Shown: piece by piece, positions 59,545 through 62,464 of the stretch
Position numbering within the stretch: position 1 is the stretch's first letter
How the letters are laid out: each line of letters opens with the position of its first letter
NCBI RefSeq assembly: GCF_000760095.1
Contig: NZ_JNAR01000013.1
Coordinates: 1-64,000, forward strand
Direction: 5' to 3'
Origin: Prochlorococcus marinus str. MIT 9401
Lineage (GTDB): Bacteria > Cyanobacteriota > Cyanobacteriia > PCC-6307 > Cyanobiaceae
Length of the DNA: 64,000 nucleotides
Position numbers and translations under genes: made by a program
Notes under the pieces: model-generated
What the model saw: the letters and a program-made list of their open reading frames with translations, nothing else
Databases searched by the model: none
Told to the model about the DNA's origin: nothing

Positions 59545-59724
59545 TCAGGATTTCAAACGGCAACCAATATTGATAGATCCTGCATCAAGCATTCTGCCTA
59601 ATTTAATAGCTATGGATTCCTCCAACCTAGTGAAATTTGATTGATGGGTAGTTATCCAATCTAATTCAGAAAAAGTGATAATTCCCGTCGAATTACTTTT
59701 TAAAAAAAGTGTTCCAATTTCCAT
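59545..59724 (-). CDS. Small conserved ORF of 59 residues, unknown
   Basis: An ATG-started frame of 59 residues with soluble, balanced composition (TGIITFSELDWITTHQSNF, then RLEESIAIKLGRMLDAG and INIGCRL). It looks like the small proteins shared by marine cyanobacteria. The amphipathic ends and the good start context make it more likely real than chance. It lies 105 bases downstream of the photolyase gene on the same strand. Confidence 0.65.
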   Translation of the reverse strand: MEIGTLFLKSNSTGIITFSELDWITTHQSNFTRLEESIAIKLGRMLDAGSINIGCRLKS

Positions 59725-59829
59725 TAGATAAATCCAATTTTACCTAAACTAACATCCGTACTTAATATTTCTTCGTAACATAATATTCTTTTAATTTTTC
59801 AAAGACAACTGTAGGTTATTACTCTTAAT

Positions 59830-61320
59830 TTATTGAATATCTCTTAAAAATTTATCGGCCGTTTTTAAGTGATTATTTAATTTTTCCTCTGACATTTTAT
59901 CGAGATTTCTCGTTAACATTGCCAGACGATATTGCTTTCTAAAAAAGCTTTCATTATCTTTAATAAATTTCCAAAATAACCCATCCCATATTTCACACCA
60001 TGGGCCACTTTTAAAATTAGACATTTTTTTTACATAATTAGAGCTGGATATATATGGCTTTGTTGAAAAGATACCACCATCACTAAACTGACTCATTCCG
60101 TAAACATTTGGGACCATAACCCAATCATAGGAATCAATAAACATTTCCATAAACCACTTATAAACTTGGTTAGGGTGAATTCTACATAGAAGCATGAAGT
60201 TACCAATAATCATTAGCCGCTCAATATGATGACAATAACCATATTTAATAATATTTTTTATAACAACGTCTACTGGTTCAATTCCTGTATTTCCTTGATA
60301 AAAAGATTTTGGAATTGGCTTGTCTTCAAAATTCCAAAAATTACTATTTCGCATCTTTGTTCCGTACTTTTTATAGACGAGGCAAATAAATTCTCTCCAT
60401 CCAATAATTTGACGAATAAAACCCTCTAAAGAGTTAATGGGAACATTATTATTTTTTGCAAAAAGTAATGCTTTATTTACTACTACGTCTGGGGTTAATA
60501 AGCCGCTATTTAAAAGAGGAGAAAGTAAACTATGCCATAAAAAAGAGTTTTCTTTAGAAATAGCATCCTCATAATCTCCAAATAAGAAAAATCTATGTTT
60601 AAAAAAATCATTTAACCATTCATCTGCCTCTTCAAAATTAGTTGGATATAAAAAGTTATTACTTTCTCCAATAAACTCAATATCAAAATTGGCTAATGAC
60701 CTTTCTGCATTAACTACAAATTTATTTTTTTGTAATTTAGGTGTATAGGGTATATTTATTTTTTTTGGTAATTTTTTTCTGTTCATTTCATCGAAACTCC
60801 ATTTGCCACCTTCAGGAGTATCATCAGGATTAACTAATATCTTTTGGCTCTTTCTTTGATTCTCATAAAATCTCCCCATGAGTGGTTTTTTTGCATTTGA
60901 TGCAAATAAATCTTTTAAATCTTCACTGCTCATAAACATAGGAGATGGCAAAATATTTAAAGCTAAATTATTACTCTTAACAAAATTATTAATCCTCTTC
61001 ATTATTAAAAAATCATGAGGTTCAATGAGATTTATTTTCTGATATTTATTTTTAATAAATTCCGATAAGAAATCAACTGTAGAAACATTATTCTTGTTTT
61101 CGATATATAAAACTTTGAAGCCAGATATTTCTAAATAATTTTTATAAGCGAGCATAGATGCTTTATGAAAAACTAACTTATTTTTATGGTTAATTAATTT
61201 ATGAAATTTATCATTTCCAAAAAATAATGAGTCTTCCAAAATCAAAACTTCACAATTTATTTTTAAGATTGGGCTTTCTCTAAAAAGTTGATTCGGGAAA
61301 ATAATTGATACTTGTTTCAT
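59830..61320 (-). CDS. Cryptochrome/photolyase-related protein (FeS-BCP group)
   Basis: A 496-residue flavoprotein of the prokaryotic (6-4)-photolyase/FeS-BCP type. The N-terminal half is a Rossmann fold ([13 protein letters not shown], then [11 protein letters not shown]). The C-terminal helical half has [28 protein letters not shown] (C363), [18 protein letters not shown] and [14 protein letters not shown]. After that the region that normally holds a Cys-rich loop is short and leaves only C442 (GPWCEIWDG). It would repair UV (6-4) photoproducts in light. It overlaps the DUF2256 gene by 4 bases. Confidence 0.88.
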
Positions 61321-61448
61321 CTTTGCGACTTCCTGTTACTGCATCTTTTTGAACAGTAGATAACATCATCCCAGCAGTTTTTCCATTTTTTACGCCACTC
61401 AAACGGCCTATTGCAAACAGGACAAGTTTTAGTAGAAAGATTTTTCAA
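61317..61448 (-). CDS. DUF2256 zinc-ribbon-like mini-protein
   Basis: A 43-residue protein with TTG start: [16 protein letters not shown], then [13 protein letters not shown] and SNRKSQR. The cysteines C9, C12, C25, C32 and C36 form a zinc-finger-like pattern, as in DUF2256 proteins, which I recall as common neighbours of FeS-BCP photolyase genes. Its stop overlaps the photolyase start as ATGA. It begins 3 bases after the TIGR03643 gene, so it is inside a tight operon. Confidence 0.88.
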
Positions 61449-61451
61449 AAT

Positions 61452-61688
61452 TTATAATTTTCTTTTATGAGTAGATTTAAATCTAGTTGAATCTTTAAGG
61501 GCCATATGTTTTGTATTTCTTCCCGAAACTCTCTTTCTCCAGACTTTGAAAGATTTGGGTTTTAGATTTTGACGCATAATTTTTATCGCATCTTCCTCTT
61601 TTAAACCAAATTGATACTCGATAGCTTCAAAGGGTGTTCTATCTTCCCAACACATTTCTATTATTCTGTCTATATCGATACTTTCCAT
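61452..61688 (-). CDS. TIGR03643 / DUF2805 family protein
   Basis: A 78-residue protein with RIIEMCWEDRTPFEAIEYQ, GLKEEDAIKIMRQNLKP and KVWRKRVSGRNTKH, as in the TIGR03643/DUF2805 family. It is basic at the C-terminus, which fits nucleic-acid binding, but no function is established to my knowledge. It sits 2 bases after the DCC-family gene and 3 before DUF2256. Confidence 0.85.
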   Translation of the reverse strand: MESIDIDRIIEMCWEDRTPFEAIEYQFGLKEEDAIKIMRQNLKPKSFKVWRKRVSGRNTKHMALKDSTRFKSTHKRKL

Positions 61689-61690
61689 AT

Positions 61691-62095
61691 TTATTGTTCA
61701 CATTGTGAGGTACAAAGTTTTTCAATATCGGATCTACCTGTAATTTGAAGTCTATATTTTGCCCAATATCTGTAAACCAATCTCAATAATGGAGATAAGA
61801 TCTTAATCTTCAAGGGATAATAAACCCAACCTAAACCAACTAATTCATAAGAATACGCAAGTACATCTAGTCCCCTAATAATTTCTCCATTTTCAATAAT
61901 CCCATGCAGGTTTGACATGGCTTCTGAATATGAGATGTCATTAAAAAGACTTTGATCATAATCCTTAGTATTAATATCTATAAATGCAATTCGATTTAAG
62001 GTATCTCTTTTTTTAAGAAAATTTGTTTCTCTCAAACAAAGTGGGCAACCACCATCGAATAAAAAGATTAATTTATTTTTCATATTTTTATTCAA
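61691..62095 (-). CDS. DCC-family thiol-disulfide oxidoreductase-like protein (DUF393)
   Basis: A 134-residue protein with IFLFDGGCPLCLRE near residue 10 (CxxC as C17 and C20), the DCC family signature. The rest is typical: FIDINTKDYD, then ENGEIIRGLDVLAYSYE and VYRYWAKYRLQITGR. The family is predicted to have a thioredoxin-like fold; partners are unknown. It is first in the photolyase cluster. Met5 (62083) is an alternative start. Confidence 0.88.
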   Translation of the reverse strand: MNKNMKNKLIFLFDGGCPLCLRETNFLKKRDTLNRIAFIDINTKDYDQSLFNDISYSEAMSNLHGIIENGEIIRGLDVLAYSYELVGLGWVYYPLKIKILSPLLRLVYRYWAKYRLQITGRSDIEKLCTSQCEQ

Positions 62096-62260: not shown

Positions 62261-62464
62261 TCAGTCATCTAGAAGATGAACTCCTTCTCCTACATCAGGA
62301 GTAAATTTACAATATTTTTCAAAAATAAGTCCAACACCCCTCATTTTTTCTCCTAATTCATCGTTAAATTTATTCCATTCCTCCGATTCACGATCAGGTA
62401 AATCCCACCCTTGCTTTTCTACCATACTTGTTATTATTGTATAGTCCCATTCTATGTATGCCAT
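62261..62464 (-). CDS. Small acidic protein, unknown function
   Basis: A 67-residue acidic protein (MAYIEWDYTIITSMVEKQGW, then WNKFNDELGEKMRGVG and a DVGEGVHLLDD end). No family was recognised. It stands alone between the photolyase cluster and the SpoU methyltransferase, with a hairpin after its stop (62218-62243). Confidence 0.6.
   Translation of the reverse strand: MAYIEWDYTIITSMVEKQGWDLPDRESEEWNKFNDELGEKMRGVGLIFEKYCKFTPDVGEGVHLLDD

Follow-up and report, generated by a model that had tools for sequence, protein, structure and literature searches.

DUF2256 and TIGR03643 as probable accessory proteins of prokaryotic 6-4-type photolyases, gathered with the enzyme in a Prochlorococcus gene cluster

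The window analysed here is a 64,000-nucleotide stretch of Prochlorococcus marinus str. MIT 9401 (contig NZ_JNAR01000013.1, positions 1 to 64,000), whose minus strand carries a photolyase gene and three small companions, encoding a DCC1-like thiol-disulfide oxidoreductase, a TIGR03643/DUF2805 protein and a DUF2256 protein (Table 1). The four genes lie head-to-tail with spacings of 2, 3 and -4 bases, the photolyase start being overlapped by 4 bases of the DUF2256 gene. This arrangement, given in a first-pass annotation made from the sequence alone, was reproduced exactly when the coordinates were recomputed, and the further small open reading frame (ORF) reported at 59545 is also present. The gene order was kept in all six sampled genomes of the window's genus, the window's own genome included, with spacings of 2 and 3 bases in six and -4 in five of them; in the exception (L105) the computed gap is 2, with the DUF2256 match stopping two residues early.

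Table 1. Genes of the photolyase cluster and the ORF that follows it
Feature	Coordinates	Strand	Remarks
DCC1-like thiol-disulfide oxidoreductase (PF04134)	61691..62095	-	134 aa; leads the cluster in the window
TIGR03643/DUF2805 protein	61452..61688	-	78 aa; predicted all-helical, helix-turn-helix-like, basic tail
DUF2256 protein (PF10013)	61317..61448	-	43 aa, TTG start; C4 zinc-finger-like, CxxC + CxxxC, three invariant Trp
Photolyase, prokaryotic 6-4-type (DPRP + FAD-binding)	59830..61320	-	496 aa; without the four Fe-S cysteines
Conserved ORF	59545..59724	-	59 aa; cluster membership uncertain

All four proteins exceeded the Pfam cut-offs of their families. The DCC protein, which carries its CxxC as CPLC within GGCPLC and has an alternative in-frame ATG at 62083, 12 bases downstream of 62095, scored 87 bits against PF04134 (cut-off 27.8); the TIGR03643 protein scored 111.2 bits against PF10985 (22.5) and 123.7 bits against the NCBIfam model TIGR03643 (66.55); and the DUF2256 protein scored 66.1 bits against PF10013 (curated cut-off 25). 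NCBIfam held no above-cut-off model for DUF2256, DCC or the window photolyase. Its sequence places the photolyase in the prokaryotic 6-4 (DPRP) family: both the N-terminal domain (PF04244, 145.8 bits against 22.1) and the domain binding flavin adenine dinucleotide (FAD; PF03441, 32.1 bits against 27) that define the family were above cut-off, and of nine PDB matches, eight are DPRP-type prokaryotic photolyases as judged by their molecule names. The closest solved relatives are 8ijy, 9hnk, 5kcm, 9q8f and 4dja, with alignments running from residue 44 to about 495 for 4dja and 5kcm and from 44 to 478 for 8ijy. The first-pass annotation had linked the companions to FeS-BCP photolyases, a label that was rejected for this enzyme because all four cysteines of the [4Fe-4S] iron-sulfur (Fe-S) cluster are missing (0/4), their positions reading P, gap, gap and E.

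At the genome level, DUF2256 and DPRP were found together in three bacterial groups, sampled as 151 Cyanobiaceae, 219 Pseudomonadota and 218 Bacteroidota genomes, the latter two drawn evenly from the phylum and searched in part by scoring at most 32 candidates per genome. Both families were present in 73 Cyanobiaceae genomes, DUF2256 alone in 1, DPRP alone in 9 and neither in 68 (totals 74 and 82); the corresponding counts were 50, 7, 9 and 153 in Pseudomonadota (totals 57 and 59) and 64, 6, 8 and 140 in Bacteroidota (totals 70, including one match below the family cut-off, and 72). Counted by genus, the 59 Cyanobiaceae genera comprised 20 with both families, 1 with DUF2256 only, 1 with DPRP only, represented by one genome that is 62% complete, and 37 with neither. 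Fisher p-values for DUF2256 with DPRP were 1.6e-31 for Cyanobiaceae, 2.8e-32 for Pseudomonadota and 9.4e-39 for Bacteroidota, and are descriptive only, because genomes were treated as independent. The association of DUF2256 at this level is specific to DPRP: in Pseudomonadota it was found in 50 of the 59 DPRP-positive genomes, in 7 of the 64 with FAD_binding_7 photolyases only and in none of the 96 with neither. TIGR03643 followed the same enzyme, with 25 of 25 Cyanobiaceae genomes that contain it being DPRP-positive, and, among the 58 Bacteroidota genomes with a match above cut-off, 53 containing DPRP and 54 containing DUF2256. Among the 14 control genomes, those of Caulobacter vibrioides and Synechococcus elongatus matched both DUF2256 and DPRP.

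The two families are also physical neighbours of photolyases over a wide range. GTDB contigs scanned with the DUF2256 alignment yielded at least 573 confirmed loci, and neighbourhoods were taken from the best 80 of these, with gaps measured on stop-to-stop frames. A photolyase frame lay within 300 bp of DUF2256 at 43 of the 80 loci, where chance neighbours would be expected at well under one in 80, as estimated from the few photolyase genes among thousands. The photolyase-adjacent loci made up 29/44 in Pseudomonadota, 11/17 in Bacteroidota/Balneolota and 3/5 in others, as grouped by record titles. By class, the neighbours were DPRP at 19 loci, phr98 at 17, ssPL-like at 7 (three of these scores being low) and DASH-like at 7, some loci having several. 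Here "phr98" is a provisional label after PhrSph98, to which the class may or may not correspond, and "ssPL" and "DASH" are likewise used as class names. Among the 37 loci without a nearby photolyase, ten have less than 1.5 kb of flank on one side, and a FAD_binding_7 photolyase was found elsewhere in 35 of the 37 genomes and not in G176 and G181, where DPRP was not searched. Within genomes, with distances computed from one place per genome, the match starts of DUF2256 and DPRP were at most 2.5 kb apart in 24 of 50 Pseudomonadota and 27 of 64 Bacteroidota genomes; in Bacteroidota, 20 of 58 genomes had TIGR03643 no more than 8 kb from DPRP or DUF2256, and 10 had all three together within 8 kb. 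The first-pass annotation had named DUF2256 and TIGR03643 as frequent neighbours of FeS-BCP photolyases and had held that conservation no better than chance outside close relatives would count against a module; the association in fact reaches far past such relatives, into three bacterial groups.

In Cyanobiaceae, tight linkage is confined almost wholly to two genera, g1 and g56, which we take to be Prochlorococcus. DUF2256 and DPRP starts were at most 2.5 kb apart in 10 of 10 genomes of these genera that have both families and in 1 of 63 others (G051), and 33 of these 63 have the two on different contigs; TIGR03643 belonged to the cluster in all of these 10 genomes and lay within 2.5 kb of DPRP in none of 15 others. 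As DUF2256 and DPRP co-occur in this family even though unlinked, linkage alone is an insufficient explanation of their co-occurrence, and in Prochlorococcus partners that lie apart elsewhere in the family seem to have been brought together separately. One g56 genome (G146) had no DPRP, DUF2256 or TIGR03643 match but two DCC matches, one of them in a broken frame; four g56 relatives carry the cluster. A gene resembling single-stranded-DNA photolyases was observed just downstream of the TIGR03643-DUF2256-photolyase genes in g56 (L087:9378-13001, L067, L076 and L091), and in L087 a putative peroxiredoxin-like ORF separates the two, with tandem ORFs that appear antenna-protein-like before the cluster.

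The DCC gene did not share this behaviour. The first-pass annotation had counted it in a light-repair module; a DCC match was found in 138 of the 151 Cyanobiaceae genomes, photolyase present or not, so that its presence says little, and only one weak match appeared in the 80 DUF2256 neighbourhoods, searched with a hidden Markov model (HMM) made solely from the DCC proteins of Prochlorococcus, which distant members could escape. DCC was therefore dropped as a core member and is judged a local, lineage-specific passenger.

On the one hand, the tight coupling of these genes in the window, together with the four invariant cysteines of DUF2256 and the CxxC of DCC, would fit a maturation role, in which the small proteins load the Fe-S cluster, FAD or antenna pigment and DCC is a redox partner; assembly of cofactors had been among the first-pass proposals. 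On the other hand, the companions are about equally frequent with enzymes that lack the cluster. Of 79 classable Cyanobiaceae DPRP rows (omitting the truncated L060 and L113, G144, and the fragments G087 and a second G048 copy), 32 have all four cysteines (CCCC) and 47, from 46 genomes since G137 is counted twice, do not; in Bacteroidota, taking one gene for each of the 72 DPRP-positive genomes, the cysteines are present in 48 and missing in 24. In Cyanobiaceae, DUF2256 accompanied the Fe-S enzyme in 29 of 32 rows and the Fe-S-less enzyme in 42 of 47; the Bacteroidota genomes with DUF2256 numbered 44 of 48 and 20 of 24, giving pooled counts of 73 of 80 and 62 of 71. TIGR03643 occurred in 34 of the 48 Bacteroidota genomes with the cysteines and in 19 of the 24 without, and in Cyanobiaceae leans towards the Fe-S-less enzymes (4 of 32 rows and 21 of 47). 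The association of DUF2256 with DPRP is thus independent of the Fe-S cluster, the partners remaining where the cluster is missing, which amounts to a natural experiment, and a role in Fe-S assembly was rejected. The Escherichia coli control genome contained no PF10013 and no TIGR03643 match. SePhrB produced in this host is reported to contain FAD and the Fe-S cluster, to have 6-4 activity and, when a foreign FO synthase is co-expressed, to take up the 8-hydroxydeazaflavin (8-HDF) antenna (PMC9178010), and E. coli carrying phr2 of Synechococcus RS9916 is reported to survive nearly 10-fold better in a light-dependent manner (PMC9426592). Neither catalysis nor cluster loading therefore needs the companions in that host. 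Cofactor assembly is disfavoured on both grounds, with DCC unlinked elsewhere as a further point, and maturation is very unlikely to be the explanation, although in a variant of it the companions may affect how fast or how fully cofactors are loaded in the native host.

The features of the two small proteins may point to a different role. In alignments of 25 members each, 13 columns are invariant in DUF2256, including those of four Cys and three Trp, and 12 in TIGR03643; in the window both proteins are basic, with isoelectric points (pI) of about 9.9. The predicted DUF2256 model (mean confidence, pLDDT, 83) gave weak Foldseek matches (best E 0.35), with a PNUTS:Tox4 chain at rank 1 followed by MYND and YacG entries, and weak VIA-align matches (Z at most 3.1) to YacG and to chains that we read from their entries as pre-60S/L24e-type ribosomal. 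The 4tma (gyrase-YacG) chain stood at rank 3 in both searches (VIA Z 2.9, 36 residues, 2.8 Å); the DUF2256 profile weakly matched bacterial ribosomal L24 (E 0.042), and the 12 PDB sequences that it matched at E up to 1 included no YacG chain. YacG corresponds to DUF329. DUF2256 and DUF329 have been placed in one (TRASH) clan (PMC4047054), and YacG is described as a zinc-finger protein, 65 residues long, that places a Trp inside GyrB and keeps gyrase from binding DNA (PMC10886550). DUF2256 would then be a stand-alone treble-clef (TRASH/MYND/YacG-like) zinc finger, and it may dock on the photolyase, with its invariant tryptophans, by analogy with that of YacG, as possible contacts. The TIGR03643 model (pLDDT 79) has predicted helices at residues 3-14, 20-27, 31-41 and 44-54, and six weak VIA rows (Z 2.9-4.2) matched it to two spliceosome chains, LrpA, TnpE, ST1022 and a sigma-28 complex chain, so that it may be a basic helix-turn-helix-like protein that binds DNA. 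Jointly, the two could control the engagement of the photolyase with ultraviolet (UV) lesions, or its release from them, in the cell, instead of making its cofactors. DNA delivery, a further first-pass proposal, or some other accessory role would be candidates as well.

The weak likeness of TIGR03643 to LrpA and the sigma-28 complex chain, and the basic character of both proteins, could also be read as those of regulators that control the expression of light-repair genes. Nevertheless, the sequence is strongly conserved from Cyanobacteria to Bacteroidota, which we judge unusual for local regulators, and the gene is often distant from its supposed target, so that regulation appears improbable. 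Docking and lesion handling is favoured over both regulation and maturation, and this specific mechanism is put forward tentatively, as somewhat less probable than an even chance.

The separation of the genes in many genomes, and the several photolyase classes that DUF2256 adjoins, could also mean that these are general genes of a UV or light-exposed lifestyle, which share an ecological distribution with photolyases and do not act on them. Such genes would hardly be expected to be as rare as DUF2256 is in the Pseudomonadota with other photolyases but no DPRP, nor to adjoin photolyases at gaps of tens of bases repeatedly in separate phyla, and we consider this explanation unlikely. A functional link of DUF2256 and TIGR03643 with the DPRP photolyase itself is very probable. 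The reading as a whole, in which the two are accessory proteins of DPRP photolyases that have been gathered with the enzyme in Prochlorococcus, is given a probability of roughly 0.6.

Several observations weigh against it. None of the 14 cyanobacterial loci among the best 80 was photolyase-adjacent, at many loci DUF2256 adjoins another photolyase class, and in at least G208, G259 and G323 DPRP is distant or on another contig. DPRP without a DUF2256 match was seen in 9 Cyanobiaceae, 9 Pseudomonadota and 8 Bacteroidota genomes, some of which may be missed matches, given that some Cyanobiaceae genomes are incomplete and that candidate scoring was limited to 32 per genome; the Haloferax control also matched DPRP and not DUF2256, and G025 carries DUF2256 without DPRP. 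TIGR03643 is missing from 57 of the 82 DPRP-positive Cyanobiaceae and had no match in any of the 14 control genomes. The co-occurrence counts are uncorrected for phylogeny. As for the mechanism, neither small protein had a Foldseek match with E below 0.001 and Z was at most 4.2, and the proposed mechanism is a prediction from sequence and genome comparison. As DUF2256 stands beside non-DPRP classes, its direct partner could be photolyases generally or a shared process. As a possible generalization, rated below an even chance, DPRP photolyases may not act singly in the cell but with dedicated partners, a zinc finger of 40 residues and, in many lineages, a helix-turn-helix protein, which would control lesion engagement independently of the Fe-S cluster; DUF2256 may serve several classes.

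Some further observations concern the distribution of these families. The phr98-type genes, a divergent class with DNA_photolyase and FAD_binding_7 domains, occurred in the flanks of 24 of the 80 DUF2256 loci, many of them in Rhodobacteraceae by title, and one member (L128:9287-10828) had no close solved structure. On a contig titled Tatlockia (L122), counted under Pseudomonadota and possibly misbinned, the DUF2256 neighbours group with cyanobacterial loci. DUF2256 was found on 133 PLSDB plasmid records, mostly of Pantoea (57) and Acinetobacter (13), indicating plasmid-borne movement of the gene in some lineages; the phage search gave no DUF2256 match. In Bacteroidota (e.g. G467, G552 and G611) there is also a further DUF2805-like group with lower scores, which fell below the TIGR03643 cut-off at 11 places and whose frames span about 92-102 codons. 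Around the cluster in the window, the 59-aa ORF had no Pfam or NCBIfam match and lies 104-105 bases downstream of the photolyase in all six genomes of the genus; its homologues were found near DPRP photolyases in these six genomes and in L066, L083 (upstream) and L093 (downstream), with a partial one in L011. Upstream of the cluster, an acidic 67-aa ORF (62261-62464, minus strand, pI 4.3), likewise without a Pfam or NCBIfam match, is kept in the same six genomes. Promoter and terminator scans showed no excess over shuffled sequence (20 sites against a mean of 20.2, and 1 against 1.1).

The literature searched contained nothing joining DUF2256 with photolyase and did not mention TIGR03643, and the passages found that name DUF2256 or DUF2805 draw no tie to photolyase. 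Rhodobacter RSP_3076, numbered next to RSP_3077 (cryB), appears in RpoH regulon and IscR tables and is left out of the evidence used here. The association of DUF2256 and TIGR03643 with photolyase may well show in automatic neighbourhood databases; new here are how broad it is, that at the genome level it is specific to DPRP, and that it does not depend on the Fe-S cluster. Studies of photolyases usually treat each as one enzyme sufficient in itself, and if the reading is true, two domains of unknown function would gain a role and the picture of light repair in vivo would be revised. Research on 6-4 photolyases from Caulobacter crescentus and S. elongatus is already in progress (PMC12082625, PMC9178010), and with both DUF2256 and DPRP found in the control genomes of C. 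vibrioides and S. elongatus, the question is directly testable.

Among known systems, the closest to the window enzyme are PromaPL and Phr2 of marine picocyanobacteria, which are reported to have no Fe-S cluster (PMC9178010, PMC9426592) and are the same enzyme type, a member of the prokaryotic 6-4 group without the Fe-S cysteines. The lesion repaired by such Fe-S-less relatives is disputed, one report describing 6-4 repair (PMC9178010) and another a probable CPD (cyclobutane pyrimidine dimer) photolyase (PMC9426592), the latter with reduced post-UV survival upon disruption of phr2 in Synechococcus RS9916. The passages of these papers on the RS9916 phr2 context name uvrC, whereas the small companion genes go unmentioned in them. 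The FeS-BCP photolyases AfPhrB, RsCryB and SePhrB also belong to the DPRP family, but they have the four cluster cysteines, none of which is present in the window photolyase. YacG and other TRASH-clan fingers resemble the predicted DUF2256 finger in standing alone and in size, with a weak fold match; YacG binds GyrB, whereas for DUF2256 the photolyase is a candidate target, and the comparison is one of analogy and not a claim of membership. The window TIGR03643 protein is, by the curated cut-offs, a clear member of the DUF2805/TIGR03643 family, whose models are annotated "TIGR03643 family protein" or "unknown function", and to which the present analysis adds a link with photolyase.

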